Assembly: GCF_007859755.1 (NCBI RefSeq)
Contig: NZ_SJPF01000005.1
Coordinates: forward strand, 62,001 to 126,000
Source: Blastopirellula retiformator
GTDB lineage: Bacteria; Planctomycetota; Planctomycetia; Pirellulales; Pirellulaceae
Reading direction: 5' to 3'
DNA length: 64,000 nucleotides
The position numbers were made by a program, and so were the translations under genes. The stretch's first letter is position 1, and each line of letters starts with the position of its first letter. The notes beneath the pieces were generated by a model that had not been told where the DNA came from, searched no databases, and saw only the letters and a program-made list of their open reading frames with translations. Shown one piece after another: positions 1-62,612 of the stretch.

Positions 1-1653
1 GTCGCCGATCTGGTGATCACCAGCACCCGGCATGAGCGCGACCAGCAGTACGCCGGCTACTTCAAAGAAGAGGACCTCAACTTCAAGGTGATCCCGCCGG
101 GCACCGACCTGGAACGCTTCTTCCCCTATTACGACTACGAACTGAGCAGCAACTCGATTGATGAGCAGTTCAAGCAGGCCCGGATGCGGATGACGCGTGA
201 GTTGGGGCGGTTCCACTTCGCCTCGGACCGGCCGTTGATTCTCGCTCTGTGCCGGCCGGATCGCCGCAAGAACATCAACGCGCTGATTCGCGCCTATGGC
301 GAGAGCAAAGAGCTGCAAGCGATCGCCAACCTGGCGGTCTTCGCCGGCATTCGCGAAGACATCGAGTCGATGCCGGAGAACGAGCAAAAGGTTTTGAATG
401 ACATGTTGCTGGCGATGGATCGTTACGATCTGTACGGCAAGATGGCGATTCCGAAGAACCACAGCTCCGAGTTCGACGTGCCGGAACTGTATCGGCTTGC
501 TGCGTCAAGCCGCGGCATCTTCGTCAACAGCGCCTTCATCGAACTGTTTGGTCTCACGTCGATCGAATCGTCTGCGACCGGTTTGCCGTTTGTCGCCACG
601 AAGGAAGGCGGCCCGCAAGATATCGCCGAAAACTGCAAGAGCGGTTATGCCGTCGACGTGACCGACTCGAAGGCGCTGACCGGCGCGATGCTGAAGCTGC
701 TGACCGATCACGATCAGTGGGACGAGTTCTCGGCCAACGGCGTTAACCTGGTCCGCGAACTTTACTCGTGGGAAACGCACTGCGAGCACTATGTCGAAGC
801 GATTCAAGAGATCATTTCGGCGCCATCGCGAACCCCTTCGGCAGTCGGCAAGCCTGCGGTCGGCCCGCGCATGGTCAATGTTGAGCGGCTCTTGATCACC
901 GATATCGACAACACGCTGTTGGGAGATGACGAAGCGCTGGCTCAGCTGAAGCAGGTGCTAAAGGACAATAAGTCGCGGATCGGTTTCGGCGTCGCCTCGG
1001 GACGGGCTTTGGAACTGGTCGATGAGGTCTTAGAGAAGCATGGCATCCACGATATCGATGTGATCATCAGCTCGGTTGGCGCCGAGATCTACTACGGCCC
1101 TGATCGGGTGCCGGTCAAAGGTTGGGGCGCCCACCTTCGCTCGCGCTGGAAGCCGGAACGCGTTCACGCTGCCCTCGACGGTCTGCCGTTCCTGCATTTG
1201 CAGCCTGAGTCGCATGCTCAGCGAGAGTTCAAGATCAGCTACTCGCTCGATGATTCGCTACCGCCGAAAGAGGCGCTGCCGCTGATTCGCGACGCCTTGT
1301 CGCAAACCGGCGTCGCCCACTCTTTGATCTTCTCGCACGGACGTTTTCTCGACATCCTGCCGCATCGCGCCTCGAAGGGAAAAGCGATTCGCTATCTCTC
1401 CTCGAAGTGGAATATTCCGCTGACGAATATCGCGACCGCGGGCGACTCGGGGAACGACCTCGACATGCTGACGGGCGAAACCGCCGGCATCGTGGTCGGC
1501 AACTACGATCCGGAACTGGAGAAGCTGAAAGAGAGCAAGTCGTCGCGCGTCTACTTCGCCGAAGCTCATTGTGCCGGCGGAATCCTAGAAGGCTTGGAGC
1601 ATTACGGTTTCATTGGGTCGCCGCGGGCTCACTTGCGGGCGGTTGGCGCTTAG
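1..1653 (+). CDS. sps: Sucrose-phosphate synthase, C-terminal part (5' truncated by window edge)
   Basis: Catalyses sucrose 6-phosphate formation from UDP-glucose and fructose 6-phosphate, and the fused HAD domain probably also dephosphorylates it. The frame is open from base 1, so the N-terminal half of the GT-B glycosyltransferase lies outside the window. Visible are the GT4 nucleotide-sugar signature (ELFGLTSIESSATGLPF, the E-x7-E pair), then a linker near residue 280. A HAD phosphatase domain of the sucrose-phosphatase type follows, with motif I ITDIDNTLLGDD and a distal GDSGNDLDML motif holding the metal-binding aspartates. This two-domain order is that of bacterial SPS. The stop codon TAG at 1651-1653 lies on the junction with the 150-bp repeat that follows. 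Family assignment is secure; whether the phosphatase domain is active is inferred from its intact aspartates. Confidence 0.9.
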   Translation, partial: VADLVITSTRHERDQQYAGYFKEEDLNFKVIPPGTDLERFFPYYDYELSSNSIDEQFKQARMRMTRELGRFHFASDRPLILALCRPDRRKNINALIRAYGESKELQAIANLAVFAGIREDIESMPENEQKVLNDMLLAMDRYDLYGKMAIPKNHSSEFDVPELYRLAASSRGIFVNSAFIELFGLTSIESSATGLPFVATKEGGPQDIAENCKSGYAVDVTDSKALTGAMLKLLTDHDQWDEFSANGVNLVRELYSWETHCEHYVEAIQEIISAPSRTPSAVGKPAVGPRMVNVERLLITDIDNTLLGDDEALAQLKQVLKDNKSRIGFGVASGRALELVDEVLEKHGIHDIDVIISSVGAEIYYGPDRVPVKGWGAHLRSRWKPERVHAALDGLPFLHLQPESHAQREFKISYSLDDSLPPKEALPLIRDALSQTGVAHSLIFSHGRFLDILPHRASKGKAIRYLSSKWNIPLTNIATAGDSGNDLDMLTGETAGIVVGNYDPELEKLKESKSSRVYFAEAHCAGGILEGLEHYGFIGSPRAHLRAVGA

Positions 1654-1802
1654 CAGTCCGTTGATTTTCTCGACGGACTGCGTGATCGCATGGATGCGAT
1701 CCCAAAATAGCGACGTAAGTCGTTATTTTGCGAGCCGCGAAGAGCTACGCTCTGAGCCTGGCGAGGTTGGAAAATGCCACGATGGCATTTTTCAACAGGC
1801 AG
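1653..1802 (+). mobile_element. 150-bp multi-hairpin element, copy 1 (full length)
   Basis: Left end GCAGTCCGTTGA, right end TCAACAGGCAG, flanked by TTA at 1650-1652 and TTA at 1803-1805. Internal hairpins in order: CAGTCCGT/ACGGACTG, GATCGCAT/ATGCGATC, AAAATAGCGAC/GTCGTTATTTT (one G-T wobble), AGAGC/GCTCT, AAAATGCCA/TGGCATTTT. It lies between the convergent sps and subtilase genes, and its left duplication overlaps the sps stop codon. No coding capacity. It may work as a bidirectional terminator (inference). Confidence 0.85.
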
Positions 1803-1812
1803 TTAGTTCAAC

Positions 1813-4800
1813 TTATAGATCCGGCAACTCAAAGTCATCCTCCTGATCCAAGGACGAGAGGAGATCATCCGCTTCGGCGGAGTAGCTCTCCTCGGTTAGG
1901 CTCAGATCCTGGGCGATTTGATCCCCCCAGGCGTCCATCGCTTCGACGATCGACGGCATCGAGAGTTGCTCGTTTTCCCCCAGCTGCGAAGCCGCGATAT
2001 CGGCCAGGGCGTTATTTTTTTGCGTGAGGGCGCCCCCCAGCGAGCGTTTAGGACTCGCTGGTTTTGCGTCGCTGGCGCGTGAACTGGCCAGCTCGTCGAT
2101 TTCGCCCCCAAACCGCAGGGCGACTTCGGCGGCGATGGCGGCGACTTGAGCCTGAATCGACATCGCTGGCGACGAAGGTTGCAACGTGGGTGAAAGGGGA
2201 TTCGCATCCAGCGTCGTCGTGACCGAACCGGCCTGCAGCGACTGGGCGATTGCGGCGACGGAGCTAACGATTGAGTCGTTGCTGGGCGCCGCTTGACTGG
2301 CGATCGCGCGACTAGGGGTCGAAACGCGGAACGCCTGCGAGACGGTGGTTTGACCATTAGTCGCGGCGACGGTGACGATCACATTGCCTGTAAAGTCGGC
2401 GGGGCGATCGACGATGAGCTGGCCATTTTCGATCTTGGCCGAGACGCCTGCGGTCGACTCGACGGCGTTGACCAGCTTGCCGGGGTCGTTGTAGTAGGCC
2501 ACGTCGAGCGTCGCGAATTTCTCACCGCCGCCAAGATCTCCGGTCCATTTGTAGACGACCGCCTGACTCCCTTCTTTCGTGATGTAGTACCACTGGTAGT
2601 TGGCGTCATGGATGAACTTTTCCTGCATGCCAAACGCGTTGTAGGCGTAGTTGGTCCGCGTCAGAAAGAGGTCGTGGACGAAGTTCGCCCGCTGGTCGAC
2701 CGAGTAGGCGGCCGGGTCAGAGACGGCGGTCGCCGCAACCGACAACGTCGCCCCATCGCCGCCCGAGAGATACGGTTCTAAGTCGAGTACGTAACGCGTC
2801 TGGTCGCCGGAAAACTGGCCGTTTGGAATCGGCGCCAGCTCTAGCTTTTGCGACTCGAAGACGACGTCAATCGTGCGAACTTCCGTTCCCTTGGCTCCAA
2901 TCGCGGTGACCGTCAGCGAAACCCGGCCGGCGAATCCCTCGCGCGGCGTAACCATCAACTTACCGGTATTGGGATCAATCGAAACGTCGACGTCGGCCGC
3001 AGGCGCCGTATCGGCGACCTGGTAGAACAGTCGGGGATCTTTGTAGTAGGCCACGTCGAACGTCGCGACGACCTCGCTTCTTACGAAGCTACCTTTCCAG
3101 GCGTGCAGCAATGCATGTTCCCCGTCGGTCGTCACAAAGAACCAGGCGCCGCTGGATGACTTCAGGTATTTTTCTCCTTGCCGCTGGGCGTTGTAGGAGA
3201 AGTTGGTCCGTTCGAGCCAATCGTCCTGGATAATGCCGAATTGGTTGTCGCCGGTCGAGGTCTTGCCGCTGGGAGTCGCGACCTCAAAGCGAGTCGCCCC
3301 CTTGGCGAAATCGTATTGCGAAAGATCAATCTCCAGCGACTCGCCCGCTTCGCCGCTGAACTCCGCCGGCAGCGGATCAAGCACAATCGGAGCGGCGACG
3401 TCGATCGAAAACGATTGCGTCGCCGTGGAAGCGCCGTCGGAGACCGAGACCGTGACCAGCACGTTGCCTACGGCAGCGGAGGTCGAATCAAAGCGGAGTA
3501 CGCCGTCGACAAATTTCACGTCGGCCAGATTGCCGGCCGCGTCGATCGCCGTCACGACGTAGGTCAGTTCGTCTCCGTCGCTGTTACCGATCGCCAGCGG
3601 AATCTCTAGCGATTCTCCCTGCTCCAGCGATTGATCATTGATCGAACCTAACTCGACCGCCTCGTTGGTGACCGTGACGACAAAGTCTTCCCAGACCGTT
3701 TCATCGCCGCGCATCGCACTGACGCGAACCGTAAATTGTCCCGTAAAACCTTCCGGCGTGGTGACCGTCAGTCGCTCGGTTTCGGCGTTCCATGAGACTT
3801 CGGCCGCCGCGCTGCCCAGCACTTCGGCCGAGACGCTCGCTTCGCCGTTGGTCTCGACATCGACGTCAAACGAGGATTGCGTATGGTGAACGGTCACGTC
3901 GGCGAGCGGATCAATCTCCAGCGGGTCGATTTCGACCGTCTTCGCCACCGTGAAGTGGAGGCCAAACGAGTTGAGCGTACCGACGTCCGAGGCGAACGAA
4001 TCGCTGACCCGCAGCTTCCACGTGCCGGCGGTCGACATCCCTTCCAACTGCGTAAGATCGCCGGTCGGACGGAAACGACCGGTGAATGGCGCCTTGGCGG
4101 TTCCGATCAAGTCGGTGGCGTCGTCATCCAGGATCGTTCCTTTGAACCCATCCCCTGATCCGCCAACCGCCGAGAAGAGCTTGATTTGCGTCCCGTTGGG
4201 GGCGATCAGCACCACGGTCAGGTCAGAGTCCCAGGTATGGTCGATGTCGAGCCAGATATCGGCATCGGCGATCTGCAGGTCATCGGAGATCGTCAGCGGA
4301 ATGTCCATCGAGCCGTAGGTCGGCAATGTGATGGGACCGGTTCTTTCGTAGACGGCGACGTCGGAAAGGTCGATTGAGAAGTGGCCAGAGAGAGCCCCGC
4401 CGGCGTTACCATATAGATCCGCAATCGCACCGTCGGCAATCTGGTACGAGACCGTACCATTGTCATACGGCAACTGCAGCCAGAATCGGGCGGTCCGGTC
4501 GTTGATCAGGTCGACCTTGGTTACGCTGCCGCTGGAGAGCTGCAAATCGGCGGCGGACAATGTCGCCGGATCGATCGCTTCGCTGAACGTTACTTCGAGA
4601 TACTTGGGAATGTCATGCAGCGTAGCGCCATCGTCGATGTTCGTACCAACGACCGACAGGTCCGCCGCATCGTAGAAGAACTGGCGGACGAACGCCGAGA
4701 GCGCCAGCCCGTCGCCGCTGCGCTGGACCGATCCGGTCAGCAGCTCCATGCGTTGCGCTCCTTGCGCGGTAATCGGAGACTGCGAGAAATGGAACGTGAC

Positions 4801-8406: not shown

Positions 8407-8429
8407 TCCGTCCCTGTAGTCGCACTCGA

Positions 8430-8458: not shown

Positions 8459-8467
8459 GTGCGCTTA

Positions 8468-8617
8468 GCAGTCCGTTGATTTTCTCGACGGACTGCGTGA
8501 TCGCATGGATGCGATCCCAAAATAGCGACGTAAGTCGTTATTTTGCGAGCCGCGAAGAGCTACGCTCTGAGCCTGGCGAGGTTGGAAAATGCCACGAGGG
8601 CATTTTTCAACAGGCAA
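8468..8617 (+). mobile_element. 150-bp multi-hairpin element, copy 2 (full length)
   Basis: Same ends and hairpin order as copy 1; the last base is A instead of G (CAGGCAA). It is flanked by TTA at 8465-8467 and TTA at 8618-8620. The right-hand TTA is the complement of the TAA stop codon of the minus-strand DUF1501 gene, so this copy sits exactly on a stop codon between convergent genes. Confidence 0.85.
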
Positions 8618-10063
8618 TTAGACGAGCAAATCGGACAGCACGCGACCATGCACGTCGGTCAGCCGGCGATCGATCCCGTCGTTGCGAACCGTTAGGCGGC
8701 GATGGTCGATCCCCAACAGATGCAAGATCGTCGCATGGATGTCATAAACCTGCGTCGGGTTGTTGCGATCGATCGGCTTGTAGCCCCACTGGTCCGACGG
8801 ACCGTAGCTGACGCCTCCGCGGATTCCGCCGCCGCATAGCCAATTGGTGAAGACGTAGGGGTTGTGATCGCGTCCTTTGCTTCCTTGCGTGCTTGGCATC
8901 CGTCCGAACTCGGTCGTCCAGAGCACGATGGTATCGTCCAGCAGTCCGCGTTGCTTGAGGTCTTGGATCAAAGCGGCGGCGCCGACCGCCATTCCCTGGG
9001 CGAGCGGCCCATGGTCGCGTTTGATATCTTCGTGGCTGTCCCAGTTGCGGCGCGGAAAGCCGTTGTCGTTGCCCGACCAAATTTGCACGAAGCGAACTCC
9101 ACGTTCCAGCAGGCGCCGCGCGACCAGGCATTTGCGGCCAAAGTATTCGGCCTCTTCCGCCGGATTGATTTCGGTGGGGTACTCGGCGCCAGGGCGATCG
9201 AGCCCGTACATCTTGAGGATATGCGCCGGTTCGTCGGAGATATCGAGCGCCGCAGGAGCGCTGCTCTGCATCTTGGCGGCCAGTTCGTAAGAACGAATCC
9301 GCGCTTCCAGCCGAGAGTCGCCGCTGCGCTTTGACCGATGCTGCTGGTTCAACTTCGCCAGCAACTTCAGCCCGGCTGCATCGCCGGCGGCGGTCACATA
9401 GTCGGCGTGGGCATGCAAGTCCTCGATCGGATTGTCGCGCTGGGGGAAGATCGCGGCGCCTTGCGAACTGGCCGGCAAGAAGGCGGAGCCCCAGTTCTTC
9501 GGCCCGTTGCTGGCGAAGCCGCGATGATCAGGCAACACGACGAAGGTGGGAAGGTTGTCGTTGATCGAACCAAGGCCGTAGCTGATCCAGGCGCCCATCC
9601 CCGGAAACCCAGGACGATCAAACCCGGTCGCTTGCAGGTAGGTCGCTTGCGAGTGGACGCCGGTCTTGCCGATCATGTTGTGGACGAAGGCGATGTCGTC
9701 CACACATGCCCCCAGCGGAGCGACAACCTCGCTGATGTGTTTGCCCGACTGGCCATAGGGAGCGAACGAGAATGGCGATTTCATCCAGGGGCCAAGCCCA
9801 TTTTGAAACGCCTCGACATGTTCCCCAAAGTCCGACTTCTCGCCATGATGTTTGGCGAGCATCGGCTTGTGATCCCATAGGTCGATGTGACTGGCGGCGC
9901 CCGCCATGAAAAGCTGCACAACCCGTTTGGCCTTGGGCGGATGGTGCAAGACCGAAACGGCGCCCGGCGTTTGGGCCAGCGACTCTTCTTGCAGCATCAT
10001 CGCCAGGGCGAGACTGCCAAGACTGGCGGAGCCTTGTGCGAGAAAGTTGCGGCGACTGATCAT
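8618..10063 (-). CDS. DUF1501 family secreted protein (set 1)
   Basis: About 481 residues. The N-terminus MISRRNFLAQGSASLG is a twin-arginine (Tat) signal, so the protein is exported folded. The ATG at 10063 is preferred over the in-frame TTG at 10087, since it puts the Tat motif at the start. DUF1501 proteins have a sulfatase/alkaline-phosphatase-like fold; visible family blocks are HHPPKAKRVVQLFMAGAASH, a metal-site-like segment with HIDLWDHKP, and TTEFGRMPSTQGSKGRDHN near the C-terminus. The gene lies 13 bp after the PSD1 gene (10077-13034), forming the pair almost universal in planctomycetes. A role in degrading or binding complex extracellular carbon is commonly proposed but not established. 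Confidence 0.9.
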   Translation of the reverse strand: MISRRNFLAQGSASLGSLALAMMLQEESLAQTPGAVSVLHHPPKAKRVVQLFMAGAASHIDLWDHKPMLAKHHGEKSDFGEHVEAFQNGLGPWMKSPFSFAPYGQSGKHISEVVAPLGACVDDIAFVHNMIGKTGVHSQATYLQATGFDRPGFPGMGAWISYGLGSINDNLPTFVVLPDHRGFASNGPKNWGSAFLPASSQGAAIFPQRDNPIEDLHAHADYVTAAGDAAGLKLLAKLNQQHRSKRSGDSRLEARIRSYELAAKMQSSAPAALDISDEPAHILKMYGLDRPGAEYPTEINPAEEAEYFGRKCLVARRLLERGVRFVQIWSGNDNGFPRRNWDSHEDIKRDHGPLAQGMAVGAAALIQDLKQRGLLDDTIVLWTTEFGRMPSTQGSKGRDHNPYVFTNWLCGGGIRGGVSYGPSDQWGYKPIDRNNPTQVYDIHATILHLLGIDHRRLTVRNDGIDRRLTDVHGRVLSDLLV

Positions 10064-10076
10064 GGGGCGGTTCCGG

Positions 10077-13034
10077 TTAGTCGACAAAGACGAATTGACT
10101 TAGGTTAAATAGCAGCCGACAGAGATTGACCAGGCCATGTCGCTCGGCGTAAGCGACCATCTCGGCCCGCTGCGCTTCGTCCGGCGATTGACCGGTGGCG
10201 AGCAGCACGCCGCGATCGACTTGCTCGGGCAGGGTGGGGCGCTCTTGTTGCAGTCGCTCGGCAAATCGCTCGGCCATCAGCAGGTTGAACGGATTGTTCA
10301 GCAAGGAGAGAGCCTGGAGCGACGTGAGCGTTTCGTTGCGGCGCGGCGTGCTTTGCGACGAGTCGGCGCAATCAAGCGTCGTCATCCAAGGGTCGGGCTG
10401 CGAGCGCACGATAAACCGATAAATGCTGCGGCGATGCGTGGCGGGATCGGACGGATCGAACTTGTGGTACTCGTAGTGGGGCGAGTGGGTCGTTTTCTCG
10501 AGCGCGAACAGGTAGAAACCAGGGCCGCCCATTTTGGCGTCGAGAACGCCGCTAACCGCAAGAATCGAGTCGCGGATCTCCTCCGCTTCGAGCCGGCGAC
10601 GATTCATCCGCCAGAGATATTGATTGCCCGCGTCGAGCTTGGCCTGGGCAGGGTCATGTTCCGATGATTGCCGATAGACGCTGCTGGTCACGATCAGACG
10701 ATGTAGCTTTTTCCAGGATTGCCCGTTGTCGCGAAACTCACACGCCAGCCAATCGAGCAGTTGCGGGTGGGTTGGTAAAGCGCCCATTCGACCAAAGTCG
10801 TTGGGGGTGGCGACGATGCCGTCGCCAAAGTGATACTGCCAGATCCGATTGACGATCGACCGCCAAACCAGCGGATGCTCGTCGGCGGTTAACCAGAGGG
10901 CGACTGCCGCCCGTCGCTCTCCTTCGCTCAGATCGCTAGGTAGCCGCCAGGGGGAGTTGGCGTCCAGCGGCAACACGCCGGGGGACATTTCCTTGCGAGG
11001 ATTTTGCACGTCTCCCCGATGCAGCAAGCGAATCGTGCGCGGCTTCCCGCCGGTCGCCTTGAAGTTTCCCTGCGCGGGAAAGTTGGTCGCGGCGGCGTAG
11101 ACCATGCGACTTGGCGGAAGCTTGGCGATGTCGCGATCGATCGCCGCCAGCGATTGTTGCAGCTGGGTGCGCTGTCGCTCTCGCTCGGGAGGGATCAGCT
11201 TGGAACGTTCGGCGGTTAGCGCTGCGATCTTGGTCGCTCGACGCGGATCGGTATCGCGAGCCCACAGGCCATCGGTCAAATTGGTGCGAGCCCAACGGAC
11301 CGGCGCTTCGATCGAGTCAAGCGCGCGAACCTTGGCGCCAAGTGCGACGTTCTCGCCGGCGGGGTTGAGCGCTTCCAGCTCGGCCAGGGCGAAGATATAG
11401 TCCTTGCTGCGTTCGCCGAGTTGCGTGGCGGTCACGCGGAGGAAGCGAAACGGCTGGTTCAGGTTCTCAAGTGATACCGGCGCCAAGCCGGGGTTCGGAT
11501 AGTCGGCATCGGTAAAGTCGGCGATGATGAGCCACTCGCCTGCGTTCTGTGCAGCCTGGACCTGAAAGCGAACCGGAAATCCAAACCCCGCGCCGATGCC
11601 GGCAAAGTCGTCATGGCAGGGATGTAGGATCAACTCCTTTATCGTTGTTGGCTGGCCAAGATCGACTTCCACCCACTTCGCATTGGTCCGGCTCGCGACA
11701 ATCGCGCTGTGATAGCCGAACGCAGGCGCCTTATCGACCGCCCCGTTTGACTTCAATTCGGCCAGCGCCTTGTCGATCTCCGGCAAGCGAGGACCGGCCG
11801 CCTTGTTAATTTGTTGATCGAGTTCGGCGAGTTCCGATCGAAGCTCCGTCTTCCGTTTCTCCAGCTCTCGCTTGCGGTCTGTGACTTCCGGAGCTTGATC
11901 GTAGGGGCGTTCCGCACGATCAATTGCGGCGAAGGCGGCCTGCAGGCTGTAGTAGTTTTCCTGCGTGACCGGATCGAACTTGTGATTGTGGCAGCGTGCA
12001 CACTGGACCGTCACGCTGCAGAAACTGTTGATGACGTTGGCGACGACATCGTCACGGTCGAGGTTGCGGGCAACCTTGCCATCGATCTTCGACTCAGGCA
12101 CCTCAACATGGCCGATAAAGTCCCAGGGGCCGGCCGCTAAGAAACCGAGCCCGAGAACACCGTCCGGCTCGCCAGGGAAGAGGACGTCGCCGGCGACTTG
12201 CTCTTGAACGAAACGGGCGTAAGGTTTGTCCTGATTCAGCGAACGGATCACGTAGTCGCGATAAGGCCACGCGTTAGGACGCAACTTGTCTTTGTCATAG
12301 CCGCACGTGTCGGCATATTTGACGACGTCCAGCCAGTGCCGCGCCCAGCGCTGCCCGTAGTGATCGGATGCCAGCAGGCGATCGACTAGTTTCTCGTAGG
12401 CGTCGGGATCGTCGTCTTGCTCGAAGGCGGTGATCTCTTCGGGCGTTGGCGGTAGGCCGATCAAGTCGTAGGTAACGCGGCGGATCAAGGCGCCGCGATC
12501 CGCTTCGGGAGATGCATGCAGGCCACGCGATTTCCAGGCCTGGGCGATGAAATGATCAATCGGCGTGCGGGCCCAGTCGCCGCCAGTATTGGGAATGTCA
12601 GGGCGAACCACCGGCTGATACGACCACCAATCGAAGTCGGCCACTTCCGGTTCCTGCAAAACGAACCGATCCGGCCAGCGGGCGCCATCCTCGATCCACT
12701 TGGCGATTGTCTTTCGCTCGGCCGCATTCAGCGGATCGGCGTCTTTGGGCATGTCGGCGGCGCCGTTTTGGGGCGTGATCAATTCGATCAGGTGACTGTC
12801 GGCGGCGTCCCCCGGCTCGATGTATCCGTCGGCAAAGGCAGACTCGGCGGTGCTGAGCGAAAAATCTCCCTTCGGGTCGTCACCGCTGTGACAGCCAAGG
12901 CACTTTTTTTCCAAGATCGGGGCGACTTGCTGGGAAAAGAAATCGGCGGCATGCGTGGCGTCTGCGGCTAGCAAGAGAAACCAACCCGCAATCGCGACGC
13001 TGCGGACGATCGTAGCAGGCAATCGGAAATACAT
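10077..13034 (-). CDS. PSD1 and planctomycete cytochrome C domain protein (PSCyt1-DUF1549-DUF1553), set 1
   Basis: About 985 residues from the ATG at 13034, which begins a signal peptide (IVRSVAIAGWFLLLAADATHA); an in-frame GTG at 13079 is the alternative. Domain order: a PSCyt1 haem-binding region with the CLGCHSGD motif, DUF1549 (PSCyt2) at about 150-360 with CARCHNHKFDPVTQENYY as a second CxxCH haem site, and a coiled coil (DRKRELEKRKTELRSELAEL). Next comes an insert of about 120 residues resembling a discoidin/F5-8 type C sugar-binding fold (WVEVDLGQPTTIKELIL), and finally DUF1553 at about 640-960. The product is likely an extracytoplasmic multihaem protein working with the downstream DUF1501 protein. 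It is divergent from the ECF sigma gene. The coiled coil plus carbohydrate-binding-like insert distinguishes it from the second PSD1 gene in this window. Confidence 0.9.
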   Translation of the reverse strand: MYFRLPATIVRSVAIAGWFLLLAADATHAADFFSQQVAPILEKKCLGCHSGDDPKGDFSLSTAESAFADGYIEPGDAADSHLIELITPQNGAADMPKDADPLNAAERKTIAKWIEDGARWPDRFVLQEPEVADFDWWSYQPVVRPDIPNTGGDWARTPIDHFIAQAWKSRGLHASPEADRGALIRRVTYDLIGLPPTPEEITAFEQDDDPDAYEKLVDRLLASDHYGQRWARHWLDVVKYADTCGYDKDKLRPNAWPYRDYVIRSLNQDKPYARFVQEQVAGDVLFPGEPDGVLGLGFLAAGPWDFIGHVEVPESKIDGKVARNLDRDDVVANVINSFCSVTVQCARCHNHKFDPVTQENYYSLQAAFAAIDRAERPYDQAPEVTDRKRELEKRKTELRSELAELDQQINKAAGPRLPEIDKALAELKSNGAVDKAPAFGYHSAIVASRTNAKWVEVDLGQPTTIKELILHPCHDDFAGIGAGFGFPVRFQVQAAQNAGEWLIIADFTDADYPNPGLAPVSLENLNQPFRFLRVTATQLGERSKDYIFALAELEALNPAGENVALGAKVRALDSIEAPVRWARTNLTDGLWARDTDPRRATKIAALTAERSKLIPPERERQRTQLQQSLAAIDRDIAKLPPSRMVYAAATNFPAQGNFKATGGKPRTIRLLHRGDVQNPRKEMSPGVLPLDANSPWRLPSDLSEGERRAAVALWLTADEHPLVWRSIVNRIWQYHFGDGIVATPNDFGRMGALPTHPQLLDWLACEFRDNGQSWKKLHRLIVTSSVYRQSSEHDPAQAKLDAGNQYLWRMNRRRLEAEEIRDSILAVSGVLDAKMGGPGFYLFALEKTTHSPHYEYHKFDPSDPATHRRSIYRFIVRSQPDPWMTTLDCADSSQSTPRRNETLTSLQALSLLNNPFNLLMAERFAERLQQERPTLPEQVDRGVLLATGQSPDEAQRAEMVAYAERHGLVNLCRLLFNLSQFVFVD

Positions 13035-13806: not shown

Positions 13807-13831
13807 TGAGTCGCCAGACAGAAAGAACCAC

Positions 13832-15416: not shown

Positions 15417-15443
15417 GCAGTCTGTTGTTTTTTCAACAGGCAG
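15417..15443 (+). mobile_element. 27-bp minimal form of the multi-hairpin element, copy 3
   Basis: GCAGTCTGTTG, a T run, then TCAACAGGCAG: only the two terminal inverted repeats remain. It is flanked by CTA at 15414-15416 and CTA at 15444-15446. It lies between two convergent genes and folds as a CTGTTG/CAACAG hairpin with a T-rich loop. It is either an internally deleted copy or a minimal transposable unit. Confidence 0.7.
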
Positions 15444-16864: not shown

Positions 16865-17371
16865 ACCCGACGTCTCGGGATTAGCGAACCGGGCGTGAAT
16901 CAGCGGTCGGGGAGTGAAGTCGCGATCGCCCCAATTGTCTGGCGGCAGCGTCATCGCATTCTCGATGTAAACGCGATAGACGCCTGGCTGCTTGTTGAAA
17001 AATGCCATCGTGGCATTTTTCAACCTCGCCAGGCTCAGAGCATAGCTCTTCGCGGCTCGCAAAATAACGACTTACGTCGCTATTTTGGGATCGTATCCCT
17101 GCGATCCAGCAGCCCGTTGAGAAAATCAACGGACTGCTGGGGGCACGCCGTCGTCTACGTCGAAGGCGCCAAGCTGAAAGGAGCCGTCTGGATGGATCAA
17201 GCCCCACGAACCGGAGTCGACGTCGCCGCCTTCCAGTACGACCCGACCGGTGGTCAAGGGAGCCCCATCAGGAAAATGGATCTTCCCTTGAACGGGATGC
17301 ATCGATTGGCTACCACACCCGAGAAGCGGCGCCAAAAGGGCGACCGCTGATAGGCAGAAAAACGTTCGCAA
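16865..17371 (-). pseudogene. Carboxypeptidase-regulatory-like lipoprotein gene split by the 150-bp element
   Basis: The upstream part runs from a TTG at 17371: a lipoprotein signal (FFCLSAVALLAPLLGCGSQ, lipobox LLGC), then a beta-sandwich start (VQGKIHFPDGAPLTTGRVV) ending in DVDDGVPP at 17138. The element occupies 16988-17137. On its far side the same frame resumes with PGVYRVYIENAMTLPPDNWG and continues to FANPETSG at about 16865, which matches the usual C-terminal part of these lipoproteins. Removing the element plus one CCA restores VPPGVYRV exactly. The natural C-terminus is missing, so the gene is dead. In planctomycetes such lipoproteins follow DUF1559 genes, as here. Confidence 0.8.
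16988..17137 (-). mobile_element. 150-bp multi-hairpin element, copy 4 (full length, inside a gene)
   Basis: Minus-strand orientation. The left end GCAGTCCGTTGA begins at 17137 and the right end TCAACAAGCAG finishes at 16988. It is flanked by TGG at 16985-16987 and 17138-17140 (CCA in element orientation). It interrupts the lipoprotein reading frame and puts a TGA four codons after the junction. Confidence 0.9.
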
Positions 17372-17602: not shown

Positions 17603-17630
17603 CAGCCCGTTGAGAAAATCAACGGACTGC
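17603..17630 (-). repeat. Residual left hairpin of the multi-hairpin element, copy 5
   Basis: In minus orientation GCAGTCCGTTGA pairs with TCAACGGGCTG (11-bp stem, one wobble). Only the first hairpin of the element remains. It starts directly after CTA (minus strand), 5 bp from the stop codon of the alpha/beta hydrolase gene, and abuts the DUF1559 fragment. Confidence 0.7.
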
Positions 17631-40006: not shown

Positions 40007-40156
40007 CCAGTCCGTTGATTTTCTCAACGGGCTGCGTGATCGCACGGATGCGATCCCAAAATAGCGACGTAAGTCGTTATTTTGCGAGCCGCGAAGAGCT
40101 ATGCTCTGAGTCTGGCGAGGTTGAAAAATGCCACGATGGCATTTTTCAACAGGCAG
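40007..40156 (+). mobile_element. 150-bp multi-hairpin element, copy 6 (full length)
   Basis: The first base is C in place of G; otherwise both ends and all five hairpins are present. It is flanked by CTA at 40004-40006 and CTA at 40157-40159. The right CTA is the complement of the TAG stop of the minus-strand FecR gene. It separates FecR from the PSD1 gene downstream, so it may uncouple their transcription. The left stem reads CAGTCCGTTGA/TCAACGGGCTG, an 11-bp pairing with one wobble. Confidence 0.85.
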
Positions 40157-42167: not shown

Positions 42168-42277
42168 GCAGTCCGTTGATTTTCTCGAGGGACTGCGTGA
42201 TCGCAGGGATCCGCGCAGAGCTATGCTCTGAGCCTGGCGAGGTTGAAAATGCCACGAGGGCATTTTTCAACAGGCAG
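42168..42277 (+). mobile_element. Multi-hairpin element, copy 7 (110 bp, internally deleted)
   Basis: Both ends are present, but about 40 bp covering the central AAAATAGCGAC hairpin are gone; hairpins 1, 4 and 5 remain. It is flanked by TTA at 42165-42167 and CTA at 42278-42280 (one mismatch). It lies in the 325-bp gap between the sigma gene and the NAD-kinase-like gene. Confidence 0.8.
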
Positions 42278-56077: not shown

Positions 56078-56211
56078 GGTCAGGCTCCATCCCTTGGAAA
56101 ACGGAGAGTTCAACGTTGGGGGGCGTTGCGAAACCTACCATTCTCACCCTTTTCATCGTTCCAGCAAGCCAAGCACCCTGGGGGAGCGGCGAGAATACAT
56201 CCCTGCGAAGA

Positions 56212-56333
56212 ATTTTCAACCTCGCCACGCTCAGAGCGTAGCTCTTCGCGGCTCGCAAAATAGCTACTTACGTCGCTATTTAGGGATCGCATCCCTGCGA
56301 TCACGCAGTCCGTCGAGAAAATCAACGGACCGC
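56212..56333 (-). mobile_element. Multi-hairpin element, copy 9 (degenerate, right end lost)
   Basis: Minus orientation. The left end GCGGTCCGTTGA and hairpins 1-4 are present. About 30 bp at the right end, including hairpin 5 and TCAACAGGCAG, are replaced by unrelated sequence. It has more substitutions than other copies. It lies between the SNF2 start and the DUF6933 gene, so it is a promoter-proximal copy. Confidence 0.75.
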
Positions 56334-56410
56334 TATGCTTCCGCCAAGCGAAAAATGGTAGAATACCACCAAGCCTTACGAATGAATTTCTATCGCCGCA
56401 ACTGCGTCCC

Positions 56411-56914
56411 ATGATTGTTCGTCTGACCCAAAAGCTGGGCAAAAAAATCGACGCCTCACCAAAGAAGTCGTATCCGCTAGATGACAATCCGCTGGCGGAT
56501 TGGAGTGCGCATCTATTTACGGTTTCTCGAACGCAATTCATCCTGGTCACGAACACCGCCACGCTCTACTCGGCGGTACTGTATGGGCGAGGCATACCGG
56601 ATGGCGGGCGGTTTCTGGACGCAATGCTGAGTACGATTCGCGAGGTCTTGGATGATGACGGTCTGAGTATTGCGTACCAGAAGCTCATCGCCCCAGCGAC
56701 GGCGACGGTGTACTTTTCGAAGGCGTTCAGCCGCTCGGTGACTGGCTCGATGAATGACCATATCATGGGGGCCAAGATCTATCTGGGTGAAGCCGATCTT
56801 TCGCCGCATGAAACGTCGTTTAAGTTGAACTGTACGCCACTGTCGGCGATCGATTATGAGAATCCAAGGAAGGTGATGCAGGCGCTTTGTGCCGATCGGG
56901 TTAACGAGCGATAG
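56411..56914 (+). CDS. DUF6933 family protein
   Basis: 167 residues, cytosolic. The start MIVRLTQKLGKKIDASPKKS with DDNPLADWSAHLFTVSRTQF is the DUF6933 hallmark, followed by ILVTNTATLYSAVLYGRGIP and the C-terminal block ETSFKLNCTPLSAIDYENPR. Members are small widespread proteins of unknown role, often in mobile or accessory regions. The gene stands alone after element copy 9. No enzymatic motif is visible. Confidence 0.78.
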   Translation: MIVRLTQKLGKKIDASPKKSYPLDDNPLADWSAHLFTVSRTQFILVTNTATLYSAVLYGRGIPDGGRFLDAMLSTIREVLDDDGLSIAYQKLIAPATATVYFSKAFSRSVTGSMNDHIMGAKIYLGEADLSPHETSFKLNCTPLSAIDYENPRKVMQALCADRVNER

Positions 56915-57615
56915 GGGGAGCGGGGAAAAGGAGGGGCGACGTGTGCCGCTATCGTCCGCGATAGTCTCTTTCGGCAGAGCCTCAGTTCGGCGCGATATCG
57001 CTTCGCCCGTGGGAAGTCAAAAAAATCGCACGGTGGTAGATTTCTGAAATCGGTCACAGTCGACATTGGCGCAGTCGCGAATCTTCTAGTCCAAACAGCC
57101 ACGCTTCAATCTCTTCCTGGCCGGGTCAGAAAGAACGCCAGCCAAGGCCCGGGCTGACGCCGCGGACGATCAGCTCTTCGCGAGCAAGCGTGGTCAGATG
57201 CATCCTGTTTGCCTGCGACCAGATGGGCGGTGGATGACGAGCAGGCACAAAAAAAGCCTGGCGAAATCGCCAGGCTTTGGAAGGCTCCCCGTGCAAAATG
57301 CTATTCGTAACAGTTCTCTGTTTGTTCTGAGCGAGTAACTGGGTGGGCCAAAGGGATTTAGGAATTCAGAGTGCCTTGCGCCACAGCCGAGCTGGCCGAA
57401 CAATTCTCGGAATTTTGGGAGGTTGGGAATACCAATACCTTCGTCGAGCGGTTTATCCAGACTGGGCAGGCGACCGTTACAAAACTGCCGTGACGCAAGG
57501 TCTTACCTACGCGAAATGGCGAATTACAGGTGTCTTTACGCTGGACTAATGGGGCGCACTTGCAAACGGAACAAGACGCATTCCCTCCGCGCAATTCTTG
57601 CAACGAGGATCGGCG
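56915..57615. other. 700-bp gene-poor interval with a terminator hairpin and possible gene remnant
   Basis: No complete gene. A hairpin AGCCTGGCG/CGCCAGGCT at 57255-57277 has an A run on its left, so it acts as a terminator on the minus strand although no minus-strand gene ends there. At 57371-57493 a plus-strand frame of 40 codons (AELAEQFSEFWEVGNTNTFV, then TGQATVTKLP) looks protein-like but has no RBS, so it may be the tail of a lost gene. Confidence 0.4.
57255..57277 (-). terminator. Orphan intrinsic terminator
   Basis: AGCCTGGCG-AAAT-CGCCAGGCT, a 9-bp stem, followed on the minus strand by a run of seven T. No minus-strand gene directly precedes it, so it may end a small RNA or the remains of a deleted gene. 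Confidence 0.6.
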
Positions 57616-57996
57616 TTATTTCGACACCAGTTTTAGCAAATCGCCGATATTTCGATGCGATTCAATCGGATGGCGAAGGCTACGGTCGAGAATGATCCGA
57701 TAGGTGTTCTGTCGCCCGATTTTTTCCTTCACGAGGAAACCTTCTTCTTCCAGGTCGGCGATGATTCTTTGGACGGCGCGTTCGGTAATACCGACCTCCG
57801 TCGCCACATGCCGAAGCACCATGGTGGGATCGCGTGACAAGACGATTAGGACGTGGGAATGATTCGTCAGGAAAGTCCAGCGATTGACGGCAGGCGACGG
57901 CTCTGGGCTTTCCGCCTCTTTGACTGCTTTCGCTGGCGAAGGCTCACGGCTTGCTGCCGGAGCCTTTTTTCCACTTTTTTTTTCCGTCGCGTTCAT
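57616..57996 (-). CDS. Winged-helix (ArsR/MarR-like) transcriptional regulator divergent from dabBA
   Basis: 126 residues. The first 40 residues are a basic, Pro/Ala/Ser-rich tail ([20 protein letters not shown]). The winged helix spans about 42-110: [40 protein letters not shown] (recognition helix) and [20 protein letters not shown] (wing). The NHSHVLI-LSRDP form is common in small bacterial one-component HTH proteins. It lies divergent from dabB, with 275 bp between the starts, so control of the carbon-uptake genes is likely (inference). Confidence 0.82.
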
Positions 57997-58183
57997 TTGC
58001 GTATTGCGAAGACAGGGTCCTGCCCCAGGGCGTGAGGCTCAAGCCGTAAACCGAGTGCCCATAACGCTTTATTCTAGCTTTCGAGTCGGGAAGTCGCAAT
58101 CCGGAATATTCTTTCCGGACTCTCGAGACGCATTTCAACTCAAGCCGTCCGCAGAATTTACCGAATTTAAAGGCGACGCACGA

Positions 58184-58212
58184 TTGACGATAAAAATGTC
58201 GCGTATTAAATT
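58184..58212 (+). promoter_or_regulatory. Putative sigma-70-like promoter of dabBA
   Basis: TTGACG at 58184-58189 and TAAATT at 58207-58212, separated by 17 bp. Transcription would begin near 58219, giving a leader of about 50 nt before the ATG at 58272. The surrounding DNA is AT-rich against a GC-rich background. Confidence 0.5.
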
Positions 58213-58271
58213 TCACGAACTTGGTTTTGCGTGTTCGCGAATTCTCGAAACTCTTGGAATGGTGGCGTTCA

Positions 58272-59873
58272 ATGGGATGTTATTCTGCGATCCTGACCTC
58301 AGCGATCTTGCTGCTGATAACGCCGGGGCTAATTCCGAGCGGCTGGGCGAATCGGCATGCCGTCGCTATGCGGCGAATGGCGATCTTTCTCGCAGCTACC
58401 TCGTTCACCTTGATTGTCTGCGGAGTAGCTCTGCTGCTCAAGTTTGGGCCCATGGAGAGGAACGCAGCGATCGAGTCGTCGACCAGTTTGCTGGGGAGCG
58501 GGTTCTATTGGGACGCGCTTTCGGCAACGATGGCGCTGCTGATTGGAGCGGTTGGCTGGACCATCCTCGGGTTCGCCTGTCGCAACTTGGATGGCGAGGC
58601 GACTCAGGGGAGATTTCTTCGCTGGACCCTATTTACTCTCGGCTCCGTTCTCATGCTCGTGGTCTCGGGCAATCTTCTTGTGGTGCTGTTCGCCTGGACC
58701 CTCACGAGCTTTGGCCTCCATCAACTGCTGCGACACTACGGCGACCGAAATTGGGCGGTCTGGACTGCTCGAAAGAAGTTCGTGATCAGCCGTCTCGGAG
58801 ACCTGTTTCTGCTCGCAGCGATTTGGCTCACTTATCACGAGTTCGGTAGCTTTGGCTTCGCCGAAATCTTCGCATCCGCCGACCACGCCCGACGGATGGG
58901 AGACGCAACCTGGAGCATCACGATCATCAGTACGCTTTACGTATTGGGAGCGATGACGAAATCAGCGCAGTTTCCGTTCCATACCTGGCTGCCGGATACG
59001 CTTGAGACCCCGACGGCGGTTTCGGCCCTGATGCATGCGGGAATTATCAATGCTGGCGGGTTCCTGATCATTCGACTCAGTCCCGTCGTATCGCTGTCGC
59101 CGGTCGCGCTTGGGTTTCTGGCGTTCGTCGGCGGTTTCACCGCACTTCTAGGAGGCGTAATGATGCTGACGCAGTCCAGTATAAAACGTCAACTGGCTTA
59201 CAGCACGATCGCTCAAATGGGCTTCATGATGCTGCAGTGCGGTCTCGGCGCGTTTTCGACAGCAATGCTGCACCTCGTCGCCCACTCAATTTACAAGGCC
59301 TATGCGTTTCTACGCTCCGGCAGCGCTCTCGAAGAGGCTGGGCGAACGGACCCGAAACTGTTGACCGACAGAAAGCTCTCCTTCCGTCTCGCCGCTACCG
59401 CGGGCGCTATCTTGGTGAGCGCCGTCATTTGCACGGCGATCGCCTGGTTGTTCCAACTGGATCTGACTCAAAAGAGCGGCGGCCTAGTGCTGGGAATCGT
59501 CCTGGTGCTGGCCTTGGCGACCTTACTGGTGCGGAGCTTCGCTACCGGATCGATGCAAATTTCATTGCAGTCGGTAGGAATCGCGACGCTCGTCGCCGGA
59601 TGCTATTTCGCCGCGTTTATTGCGATGAACGCCTGGTTGGGGACTTCCGTCGCACATCCGTCGCCTGGAGATACGCTTACTCAGGCGTTCTCGATCGTTC
59701 CTCTTTCCATCGGCTTTGTCGGCTTGTTCGCACTGGAATCGATTCTTTCCTGGACGGAGCGAAATCGAATGCTGCAGATATTCTACGTGCACTCATTAAA
59801 CGGCTTTTACCTCGACATTCCAGCTCGACGGCTGACAGGAATTTTCTGGGCGCGGTTCAATCCGGTCCCGTAA
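58272..59873 (+). CDS. dabB: DabB: NuoL/MrpA-like proton-conducting membrane subunit of inorganic carbon uptake
   Basis: 533 residues from the ATG at 58272 (an in-frame TTG at 58221 lies at the predicted transcription start). About 14 hydrophobic helices. The proton_antipo_M core has STLYVLGAMTKSAQFPFHTW, then LPDTLETPTAVSALMHAGII and AGGFLIIRLSP, and MLTQSSIKRQLAYSTIAQMG, with the conserved Lys and Glu of NuoL-type channels. In DAB systems DabB powers DabA, which hydrates CO2 to bicarbonate vectorially. dabA follows after 50 bp. The neighbour identifies it as DabB and not a Complex I subunit. The first helix is atypical but hydrophobic. Confidence 0.9.
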   Translation: MGCYSAILTSAILLLITPGLIPSGWANRHAVAMRRMAIFLAATSFTLIVCGVALLLKFGPMERNAAIESSTSLLGSGFYWDALSATMALLIGAVGWTILGFACRNLDGEATQGRFLRWTLFTLGSVLMLVVSGNLLVVLFAWTLTSFGLHQLLRHYGDRNWAVWTARKKFVISRLGDLFLLAAIWLTYHEFGSFGFAEIFASADHARRMGDATWSITIISTLYVLGAMTKSAQFPFHTWLPDTLETPTAVSALMHAGIINAGGFLIIRLSPVVSLSPVALGFLAFVGGFTALLGGVMMLTQSSIKRQLAYSTIAQMGFMMLQCGLGAFSTAMLHLVAHSIYKAYAFLRSGSALEEAGRTDPKLLTDRKLSFRLAATAGAILVSAVICTAIAWLFQLDLTQKSGGLVLGIVLVLALATLLVRSFATGSMQISLQSVGIATLVAGCYFAAFIAMNAWLGTSVAHPSPGDTLTQAFSIVPLSIGFVGLFALESILSWTERNRMLQIFYVHSLNGFYLDIPARRLTGIFWARFNPVP

Positions 59874-59923
59874 TTCGACCAGCGATACGAAGCAAATCAC
59901 ATTCACGAAAAGGGATAGGTGCG

Positions 59924-62464
59924 ATGGAAATGACCTTGAATGCGTCGTTAGGCGGAACGCGATCGAGCGAATCGATTTCGCAGCAAGTTGCGAATTCTCG
60001 CGCTCCCCATCTCAGCAGCCTATTGGCGGACGTCGAGAAAATGACGCCGCCGCTCTGGTCGCTGGCGGATTACGTGGCGGTCAATCCGTTTCTCGGACTC
60101 AGCGAAGAAAAGTTTCTGACCGCGCGGCGAATGATGGCGGAAGTGCGAGATTGCGAACTCCTACCTTCCATGGATACTTTTCGGAAACAGTTTCGAGAGA
60201 ATGGATTCGAGCGGACTGATCTCGAACAGGCGCTAAAGCAAGCCGCACACGAATACCCAGAGTGGTATCAGCAGATCGATCTCGCCGAGATTGAAGTCAT
60301 TCTGAACGGCAATGCCTCGCCAACGGAGGCCCCTGAACGAACCGCTTGGACAATTGCGGAACTTATTGATCAAAGTGAGGGGTCTGACTGGAACAGCCAT
60401 ATCATTAACGACATTTCTCGTAACGTCGCCAGCTACTTCGACCAAGGACAGGCGTCATGGACGAATCCCTGGAAAAGTGAGTCGCTGTTCACTGCCTGGC
60501 GAAACTCCGCCACGATAAGTCGACGCATGGAAATGTTAGGCGTCGCAGATTTTCGTCAGTTCGTCAAAGGGTTGCCCGCGAAGCCGAGCGAGGCGATTCT
60601 GCAACTTCTGACTCGACTGGGGGCGGCCCCTGCCCGATGGCGATGCGTGTTGTTGAGTGAGATCTTCTCTGTCGCAGGCTGGGCCTCGTTCATCAAAAAC
60701 CAAGGGGGAAGTCGTCGACACGAGTCTCACGGCGAAGGCGATTTGATTGGGTTGTTGGCGATTCGCCTCGCTTATGACGCGGCCTTAGTTGAGCGTCAAT
60801 TGCCAGCTGCGGCTTCAGCTTCGTACCACAGCGAGCGATGGAAGCATTTGTTGGAGCGTTCGGATTTGAGCCCCAACGCGCCCAGCGCTCCGGTCCTCGC
60901 CAGATACGTTTGCCAAACTGCCGTCGAGATAGCTTTCCGACGAAGACTTTGCGGGCAGCTGTCCGACGGGGAAAAGTCTCAAAGCGTTGCGACTCGCAAA
61001 GCGGCGCAGTTTGTCTTCTGCATCGACGTCCGTTCGGAAGTAATGCGACGCAATCTTGAGAAGGCTGCGGAAAACGTGGAATCGTTCGGCTTCGCAGGCT
61101 TCTTCGGGATTCCGATGCAGTACGTTTCGCTGGGTGGAGGAAAGGGCTCTGCTCAGTGCCCCGTGCTCCTTCAGCCCACATTCTCCGTCCACGAGATCGA
61201 ATCGGGGGCGTCGGAAGCCGAACAGGCGGCGGACGGTCGACGACGGCTGGCGGCTAAGAATCAACGTGCGATTTGGAAGTCTTTTCAGTCTTCCGCCGCG
61301 TCCTGCTTCAGCTTTGTCGAAACGGTAGGAGCGTTCTTCGTAGCGAAGTTGCTGAAGGACTCGCTGAATTCGTTGCGGTTCTTCGCTTCCAGCAAATTCG
61401 CGACCGATGGACGGCTTACGCGTACTCAAAGTGGAGACGGCACATCGATCGAATTCGACTCGGAATTCTCGATCGAGAAGCGGTGCAGCATTGCGGAGAA
61501 CGTTCTGCGAAACCTGGGGCTCACCGACAACTTCGCGCGGATCGTGGCATTTTGCGGTCATGGGGCCGAAGTCACGAATAATCCTTATCACGCTGGACTC
61601 GATTGTGGAGCGTGCGGCGGGCATTCCGGAGCGCCCAATGCTCGCGTCGCCACGAGGCTGTTGAATGACGACGTGGTTCGTCAGTACCTGCGCCTCCGTG
61701 GAATCGTCATCCCCGAGGATACCTGGTTTGTTCCGGCGTTGCACAAGACCACCACGGACGAGATTCAAATCCTCGACGTCGATCTGCTGCCGGATACTCA
61801 TCGAGAGGAGTTGACGCAATTGCAGGAATCGATGCGAACCGCCAGCCAACTATGCCGCGAAGAACGGAGCGGTCGGATGGACGCATCTTCGCCGCAGGAC
61901 CTAATCCGCCGCAGCCAAGACTGGGCGGAAACGAGACCTGAGTGGGGCCTGGCGGGCAACGCTGCATTTGTCATCGCGCCCCGCTGGCGAACCGCAGGTA
62001 TTGATTTGGGCGGCCGAATCTTTATGCACAGCTATGACCCGGAGCGGGATGTCGAGGGAAAAGTCTTGGAGCTAATCCTGACCGCGCCAACGGTCGTCGC
62101 TAGCTGGATCAATCTTCAGTATTACGCCTCCACGGTCGACAACCAGGCGTTTGGAAGCGGCAATAAATTGCTTCACAACGTCGTCGGCAAGTTCGGCGTC
62201 TTCGAGGGGAACGGAGGCGATTTGAAGACCGGACTTCCCTGGCAGTCGGTACACGACGGATCCAAGCTTCAACATCAACCGCAAAGACTGCTCGTCCTCG
62301 TCGATGCGCCGCGAGAGCGGGTGGAAACGATTCTGCAGAACCATACGGGAGTACGGGATTTGGTCAGCAATGGCTGGGTGTCGCTCGTCGTGATGGAAAA
62401 CGATGGCTACTACCGCTGGACGGAATCGCACGCTTGGCAGATCTGTCCGCCGACCGAGTGTTAA
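59924..62464 (+). CDS. dabA: DabA: DUF2309 zinc-dependent, beta-carbonic-anhydrase-like subunit of inorganic carbon uptake
   Basis: 846 residues from the ATG at 59924 with AGGGATAGG upstream; an in-frame upstream extension to 59237 lies inside dabB and is not coding. DUF2309 blocks: TPPLWSLADYVAVNPFLGLS near the N-terminus and FVFCIDVRSEVMRRNLE (Cys366 and Asp368). FCGHGAEVTNNPYHAGLDCG (His546, Cys561) follows. These correspond by spacing to the zinc ligands and Asp of characterised DabA. It is a peripheral membrane protein that hydrates CO2 in a DabB-coupled one-way reaction. The TAA stop lies on the duplicated TTA of element copy 10. Confidence 0.93.
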   Translation: MEMTLNASLGGTRSSESISQQVANSRAPHLSSLLADVEKMTPPLWSLADYVAVNPFLGLSEEKFLTARRMMAEVRDCELLPSMDTFRKQFRENGFERTDLEQALKQAAHEYPEWYQQIDLAEIEVILNGNASPTEAPERTAWTIAELIDQSEGSDWNSHIINDISRNVASYFDQGQASWTNPWKSESLFTAWRNSATISRRMEMLGVADFRQFVKGLPAKPSEAILQLLTRLGAAPARWRCVLLSEIFSVAGWASFIKNQGGSRRHESHGEGDLIGLLAIRLAYDAALVERQLPAAASASYHSERWKHLLERSDLSPNAPSAPVLARYVCQTAVEIAFRRRLCGQLSDGEKSQSVATRKAAQFVFCIDVRSEVMRRNLEKAAENVESFGFAGFFGIPMQYVSLGGGKGSAQCPVLLQPTFSVHEIESGASEAEQAADGRRRLAAKNQRAIWKSFQSSAASCFSFVETVGAFFVAKLLKDSLNSLRFFASSKFATDGRLTRTQSGDGTSIEFDSEFSIEKRCSIAENVLRNLGLTDNFARIVAFCGHGAEVTNNPYHAGLDCGACGGHSGAPNARVATRLLNDDVVRQYLRLRGIVIPEDTWFVPALHKTTTDEIQILDVDLLPDTHREELTQLQESMRTASQLCREERSGRMDASSPQDLIRRSQDWAETRPEWGLAGNAAFVIAPRWRTAGIDLGGRIFMHSYDPERDVEGKVLELILTAPTVVASWINLQYYASTVDNQAFGSGNKLLHNVVGKFGVFEGNGGDLKTGLPWQSVHDGSKLQHQPQRLLVLVDAPRERVETILQNHTGVRDLVSNGWVSLVVMENDGYYRWTESHAWQICPPTEC

Positions 62465-62612
62465 CAGTCCGTTGATTTTCTCGACGGACTGGTGATCGCA
62501 TGGATGCGATCCCAAAATAGCGACGTAAGTCGTTATTTTGCGAGCCGCGAAGAGCTACGCTCTGAGCCTGGCGAGGTTGGAAAATGCCACGATGGCATTT
62601 TTCAACAGGCAG
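62464..62612 (+). mobile_element. Multi-hairpin element, copy 10 (149 bp)
   Basis: Full structure with one base deleted after hairpin 1; the first base is A. It is flanked by TTA at 62461-62463 and TTA at 62613-62615. The left TTA overlaps the dabA stop codon (62462-62464). It separates dabA from cysD and would decouple the two transcripts if its hairpins terminate. Confidence 0.85.

Follow-up and report, generated by a model that had tools for sequence, protein, structure and literature searches.

What is the short sequence that recurs ten times, in whole or in part, in the 64-kb stretch analysed here (the window, C5:62001-126000), and what has moved it? The draft assembly of the host genome has 10 contigs and 6,196,617 bases in total. 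The initial annotation regarded the repeat as a MITE-like element of 150 bp with no ORF, served by a transposase acting in trans. Target duplications, an empty site and the ends of a group of insertion sequences (ISs) all support this description, and with 149 bp the element is too short for a transposase gene. Judged on sequence comparison, the repeat is very probably a MITE-like non-autonomous DNA transposon moved in trans by a DDE transposase of an IS1182-like group.

Copies of the element, their ends and target duplications

The described sequence was checked and is present at all ten places in the window. The copies are listed below; H1 is the hairpin at the left end of the element.

1654-1802, plus strand: full-length element, 149 bp, the reference copy; TTAG duplication at 1650-1653 and 1803-1806
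8469-8617, plus strand: full-length element; TTAG duplication, the right one holding the stop codon of ORF 8618-10087 (minus strand)
15418-15443, plus strand: 26-bp unit consisting of the two ends only; CTAG duplication
16988-17136, minus strand: full-length element; CCAG duplication
17603-17629, minus strand: solitary H1 hairpin; CTAG at the left side only
40008-40156, plus strand: full-length element; CTAC duplication
42169-42277, plus strand: shortened element with an internal deletion; non-identical flanks TTAG/CTAA
47024-47172, minus strand: full-length element; flanks CTAA/CTAG
56212-56332, minus strand: degenerate element without the normal right end
62465-62612, plus strand: 148-bp element; TTAA duplication, the left one holding the stop codon of ORF 59237-62464 (plus strand)

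A covariance model recovered eight large copies in the window, six of full length (169-179 bits) and two shortened (83.5 and 115.9 bits). Its output has 19 rows, and the remaining 11 scored 24.8 bits or less; several of these read the same hairpins from the reverse strand or only in part. The reference copy (1653-1802) is one of at least six identical copies in the genome, itself included, among 40 scored of 384 candidates.

The element reads CAGTCCGTTGA...TCAACAGGCAG and occupies 149 bp (148 in one copy) between two copies of its target. Its terminal inverted repeats, CAGTCCGTTGA and CTGCCTGTTGA, are imperfect and match at 8 of 11 positions, as had been noted before. A 3-bp duplication had been claimed; however, 4 bp are duplicated. 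In a sample of 864 kb with 48 rows (15 of them 26-27 bp long, some being arms of hairpins in longer copies), the flanks agree over 3 bp in 27 rows, and in 25 of these the agreement extends to the fourth base. The ends therefore had to be moved by one base: the G, A or C that had been taken as base 1 of a 150-bp element still belongs to the duplication, as its fourth base. Exact pairs at the full-length window copies are TTAG (twice), CCAG, CTAC and TTAA, and the pair CTAA/CTAG matches at three of four bases.

A survey of 2.464 Mb of the genome, window included, counted elements of 60-200 bp and gave the many duplicated flanks that a transposon would leave, at 4 bp rather than 3. Identical 4-bp flanks were found at 90 of 124 elements and were absent from 34; when the right flanks were shuffled in 2,000 trials the mean was 20.4 and the maximum 36. 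The identical flanks conform to YTAR in 68 cases and to NTAN in 87. An exact search with the 15-base left end returned 278 occurrences genome-wide (144 and 134 by strand) and none for the reversed control pattern. Scaling up the 124 elements of the 2.464-Mb sample would put the total in the genome at about 310. Shorter forms with identical flanks were also present in this sample, with lengths of 26-27 bp (five), 43 bp (one), 93-100 bp (four), 115 bp (six) and 132-133 bp (two). H1 stands without the rest of the cassette in 13 of 144 cases, two of which retain part of the second hairpin, H2, and four of which have exact duplications.

An empty site was found once, in the form of paralogues of an interrupted repeat. 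For this search the flanks of all 124 elements were joined without the insert and compared with the 2.464-Mb sample. The copy at C2:216112-216260 is nested inside another dispersed repeat, in the arrangement TTAG-element-TTAG. The interrupted repeat has an intact paralogue at C1:203481-203643, where only one TTAG stands at this point; over 163 bases its identity to the joined flanks is 99.4%. A second paralogue, C4:394595-394433, likewise has a single TTAG, at 97.5% identity. A short element unit abuts the C1 paralogue at its outer edge, away from the empty site. Many more hits, at 90-97%, are other copies of the interrupted repeat, some of them adjoining elements. Junction e31 (94%), at the edge of that repeat, is ambiguous, and diverged repeats probably account for the other spanning hits (71-85%). 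We count one clear case.

This second dispersed repeat, of which C1:203481-203643 is an example, is mostly 161 bp long and has the ends (YTA)GAGCGGTTTTC ... GAAAAACGCTC(TA). There are 64 such end pairs in the 2.464 Mb and none in the 64-kb window. Several times it directly adjoins the 149-bp element, with YTAG common to both.

Insertion sequences that share the ends

A partner IS with matching ends had been proposed, and a group of IS1182-like elements of 1.4-1.5 kb, which make the same kind of duplication, was found to have them. Relatives of its transposase were collected from 30 loci, in 17 of 117 genomes of the order (E up to 1e-30), and from a further 45 loci in a wider contig set. Ends were accepted as outward CAGCCCGTTG or CAGCCCGTGG with at most one mismatch in the 10-base core and identical 4-bp flanks. 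Ends CAGCCCGTTGA or CAGCCCGTGGT with identical 4-bp flanks, nearly all YTAR, were present at 27 of the 75 loci, and four control patterns gave none. The outward ends at these 27 loci lie 1,393-1,540 bp apart, and the flanks are CTAG (16), CTAA (4), TTAG (4), ATAG (1), TTAA (1) and CTAC (1). The same IS was counted twice in two cases, L220 with L250 and L224 with L239; L220 (genome G081, of the window's order) and L250 (Botrimarina colliarenosi) have the same ORF, which points to Pirellulales as that order. Many rows among the other 48 loci are partial genes or lie near contig ends. None of the 27 two-ended loci comes from the host genome. The second end class, CAGCCCGTGGT, comprises seven relatives (L260, L261, L263, L267, L268, L270 and L274), and six of their records are titled as other than Planctomycetota.

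The best model for two intact transposases of the group was NCBIfam NF033551 (IS1182), with 196.3 and 195.8 bits. These scores are below the cut-off of 270 bits, and we therefore call the group IS1182-like, not IS1182. The one intact protein given to Pfam contains DUF772 and DDE_Tnp_1, a domain arrangement typical of the IS1182 family.

The element and the ISs are alike at their very ends. The left core of the element, CAGTCCGTTGA, differs from the IS end CAGCCCGTTGA by one base, and the right core differs by two. Outside the 11-bp core, either end of the element agrees with some IS end at 9 of 13 positions; the P values from shuffling are modest (0.038 on the left and 0.034 on the right), and the best matches come from different ISs in different genomes. 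A blastn search with the element (E up to 1e-3) matched none of the 75 IS loci. Counting fragments, IS relatives occur in five of seven genomes with the element versus one of nine without it (Fisher P 0.035), among 16 genomes present in the results of both searches; G037, which has one weak element match, was left out. In G002 and G027 elements are present and no transposase relative was found at E up to 1e-30.

In the host genome one relative was located, C1:769747-770961, which encodes 405 aa, matches DDE_Tnp_1 and scores 163.3 bits with NF033551. Its ORF is followed after 26 bp by TCAACGGGCTG and CTAG, that is, by the complement of an element-like end and a YTAR target. A matching left end was not found at this locus and related transposases are longer at the N-terminus, so this IS looks truncated. 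A whole-genome search with the short protein (E up to 1e-30) returned only itself, and no intact autonomous copy was found. As the only relative found in the host has a shortened N-terminus and lacks a recognisable left end, the family may no longer be able to move, or it may depend on a gene missing from the assembly.

From the matching ends and the shared target duplication we infer movement by an IS1182-like transposase. The DDE enzyme of this group would recognise the imperfect terminal repeats CAGTCCGTTGA and CTGCCTGTTGA, move the element in trans and join it to staggered cuts at YTAR, which would generate the 4-bp duplication. The interior of several hairpins, which was not found in the ISs examined, would be a module kept with compensatory changes. 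The MITE reading thus stands as regards short length, inverted repeats, duplications and ends shared with an IS, and does not as regards an interior produced by deletion from a parent IS. Such an origin is not required of all MITEs.

The element is of a kind already known, since MITEs paired with IS1182-family ISs have been tabulated. As far as the excerpts of PMC3852290 go, ISMac2 of Methanosarcina acetivorans, an IS1182-family IS, has paired MITEs of 160 bp (14 copies) and 169 bp (7 copies), and one row of the MITE table gives a size of 4 in the repeat columns, which we take as the direct repeat. Those MITEs resemble the present element as short non-autonomous repeats paired with an IS of that family; unlike them as they are described there, it has about 300 copies, a covarying array of hairpins and an interior that does not occur in the ISs. 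IS1272, also placed in the IS1182 family, replaces stem-loops without duplication according to the parts of PMC5678879 available to us, whereas the partner group makes 4-bp, mostly YTAR, duplications. IS5 duplicates YTAR (PMC10359306, in excerpt) and so shares the target duplication; the best IS5 model, NF033581, gave the two intact transposases of the partner group 100 and 117 bits, below its cut-off of 140. What stands out here is the copy number, the interior foreign to the ISs found and the compensatory changes in stems between families. An abundant dispersed repeat of a planctomycete group is in this way tied to insertion sequences of a defined kind. The 149-bp element is not named in any title or abstract opening of the literature searched.

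The hairpin array and its distribution

The minimum-free-energy fold of the reference copy, computed with RNA parameters, consists of five stem-loops. They are as follows, all placed by the fold and by pair counts.

1653-1681, plus strand: hairpin H1, formed by the left end and an inverted copy of it; the outermost G of this hairpin is the final base of the duplication
1684-1701, plus strand: hairpin H2
1703-1730, plus strand: hairpin H3, CAAAATAGCGACGTAAGTCGTTATTTTG
1734-1762, plus strand: hairpin H4, with an interrupted stem
1766-1796, plus strand: hairpin H5, into which an IS4-family element inserts in other copies

Sixteen sequences from seven genomes, aligned with MAFFT, were analysed for covariation with a structure of 55 pairs in 6 helices. 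Cells were paired in 88.7% of cases versus 82.1% in shuffles and 35-39% when partners were slid. Changes on both sides were seen at 19 of the 55 pairs (10.7 in shuffles) and in 67 cells (21.5 in shuffles), and the covariation score was 0.250 (0.129 in shuffles). None of 500 shuffles reached any of these four values, which are to be read as counts and not as probabilities because the structure was taken from one of the aligned sequences, which are related to one another. Further pair types, a weak measure, numbered 47 versus 43.0, a value reached in 33 of 500 shuffles. In 104 near-full-length copies of the host genome, only 6 of 5,616 cells show changes on both sides. The hairpins are thus kept with compensatory changes between families, and structure, more than exact sequence, seems to be maintained there. 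Covariation could possibly arise without selection for structure, as one arm of a palindrome can be corrected from the other. The interiors of MITEs are usually thought free to decay; here several interior hairpins have persisted across a number of bacterial families, with compensatory changes. It can now be tested whether they serve transposition, as single-strand structures, or the host, in termination or RNA binding.

Matches to the 150 bases were found in eight of 40 genomes, own genome included: three others of the genus, with few matches (2, 5 and 6), and G025, G027, G033 and G037, which belong to other families of the order. None of 21 genomes from other genera of the same family matched at E up to 0.001. 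For duplications we picked 20 copies by hand, seven from G025, eight from G027 and five from G033, so that three other families are represented, and they mostly have the same fold as the reference. Identical 4-bp flanks were present in 10 of the 20 (L320 with misplaced ends), three of four bases match in eight and fewer in two, under a scoring that favours flank matches. The covariance model, run phylum-wide with strict filters and 10 candidates scored per genome, gave matches in at least 6 of 294 genomes. It also detected multi-hairpin relatives outside the order, in G315 and G360; the whole hairpin arrangement is absent from the model rows of G055 and G187 and from the two weakest rows of G002.

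Two copies of the same genus, L036 and L043 (G001 and G003), are 73-74% like the window copy, while the best copies of other families (G025 and G027) are 80-84% like it and L034 of G003 is 84%. The lower likeness of L036 and L043 than of copies from other families suggests that these two may be old copies, and horizontal movement is possible. Searches of plasmid and phage collections with the element gave no match. A copy following CTAG is present on the IMG/VR contig IMGVR_UViG_2891333991_000001 (26,360 bases; L313:11123-11262), the fetched locus ending inside the copy.

Alternative roles and alternative mobilisers

Stop codons TAA and TAG are contained in YTAR, so insertions can sit on them and leave the protein unchanged. 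A called ORF has its stop codon at the insertion site in 24 of the 68 elements with a YTAR duplication; a further 37 insertions are elsewhere between ORFs and seven are inside ORFs. The corresponding numbers of unoccupied YTAR sites are 634, 2,233 and 5,197. Gene interiors are avoided (7 of 68 versus 64%). At sites outside the interiors the share on stop codons is 24 of 61 versus 22% (P 0.003), a tentative excess because the ORF calls are simple. In all three window copies with exact YTAR (1654, 8469 and 62465), the stop codon of a long ORF falls within one of the two duplications; these duplications, at 1650-1653, 8618-8621 and 62461-62464, belong to ORFs of 546, 489 and 1,075 aa, respectively.

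Another possibility is that the repeat is a regulatory RNA with a structure, or a bidirectional terminator, which host selection maintains and which was mobile only in the past. The covarying stems would agree with such a role, as would the A and T tracts on either side of the H3 and H5 stems and the mild excess of elements between convergent genes (38 of 123 elements versus 259 of 1,242 gaps, P 0.016). Gene context is only suggestive, as it comes from a simple caller that lets ORFs run into the element and so places 42 of 124 elements mostly inside called ORFs. However, the copies lie scattered, duplications flank many of them and an empty site exists, genomes of the same genus have few matches, and no Rfam family was found at the gathering score in the 64-kb window, the best score in region 1600-1860 being 14.4 bits (E 0.8). 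As a replacement for transposition we consider this explanation unlikely; as a role it is compatible with a MITE.

One such role, for which we see rather little chance, is that of a functional RNA carried by the transposon, acting as a mobile CsrA sponge or 3'-end regulator. A GGA in the apical loop is a feature of CsrA/RsmA binding sites, and the apical loop of H2 has GGA in all 12 sequences compared by hand although the stem is rewritten. The host genome has 13 matches to the CsrA domain, on C1, C2, C3, C4 and C5, two of them in one open frame. If this were true, hundreds of copies, often on stop codons, would seed binding sites in transcript ends. The elements, however, lean to the strand opposite to their co-directional neighbours (40 opposite versus 24 same, P 0.06), which speaks against a role of the sense-strand RNA.

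The hairpins could instead be single-strand recognition sites in a REP/REPIN-type repeat moved by a tyrosine (HUH) transposase, either RAYT or the TnpA of IS200/IS605. Hairpins at both ends, the many copies and solitary hairpins such as the H1 units without cassette would fit, and there are 21 Y1_Tnp matches in the host genome. To our knowledge, IS200/IS605 chemistry makes no target duplications, and we know of none at REPs. The 4-bp duplications of the element, with left and right copies correlated, and the empty site with a single copy therefore make this origin very unlikely. Moreover, three of the 21 Y1 matches were scored and reached the IS200/IS605 cut-off, with 24-32 bits for the REP-associated transposase against a cut-off of 80, and the IS group that shares the element's ends carries a DDE transposase. 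REPs and REPINs, as described in excerpts of PMC3733652 (see also PMC3116915), resemble the element as palindromic repeats of high copy number that include solitary hairpins, and are linked to RAYT, whereas here there are 4-bp duplications and a partner of DDE type.

Other DDE transposases of the host were considered as partners besides the IS1182-like relative. DDE_Tnp_1 has 23 matches in the genome. Six of these proteins were scored with NCBIfam and assigned to IS1182 (L107), IS1380 (L108), IS5 (L091), ISAs1 (L102) and IS4 (L103), L109 being closest to IS1182 below the cut-off. L107 was rejected: its own inverted repeat contains GAGGCTGTGAG and not the element ends, although the element itself is present as a whole copy immediately upstream. 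IS701 (PF13546) is absent from the host genome at E up to 1e-3. A multi-copy group of about 406 aa was also rejected, since no element end occurs consistently around its genes; an isolated motif resembling an end is next to L093 and L096, L098 has a whole element nearby, and the others lack an outward end pair. In the 2.464 Mb no pair of matching ends at IS length with identical 4-bp flanks was found apart from three explained cases, one copy containing an IS4-family element and two chance joins of neighbouring units.

That the IS4-family element is the mobiliser, and the short element its deletion product, is most improbable: IS4-type ISs are indeed flanked by the element's own ends with matching duplications outside in L103 and L105, and likewise at C1:650425-652360, but they have inverted repeats of their own, ATACTGTTCGGCACGCC, and lie within H5 between 13-bp direct repeats TGCCACGAGGGCA. 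The IS4-family element (NF033592, 217 bits against a cut-off of 115) is a passenger with a target preference for the apex of H5. It was seen at L103, L105, L106, L113 and C1:650425-652360. ISRm22, an IS4-family IS, has all nine of its copies in REPs according to an excerpt of PMC1525189, and is thus a precedent for insertion of IS4 into a hairpin repeat. Seven IS4 copies have both ends visible: in five both ends are in H5, in one (L112) a single end is, and in one (L104) neither is. Two further lone IS4 ends lie outside H5.
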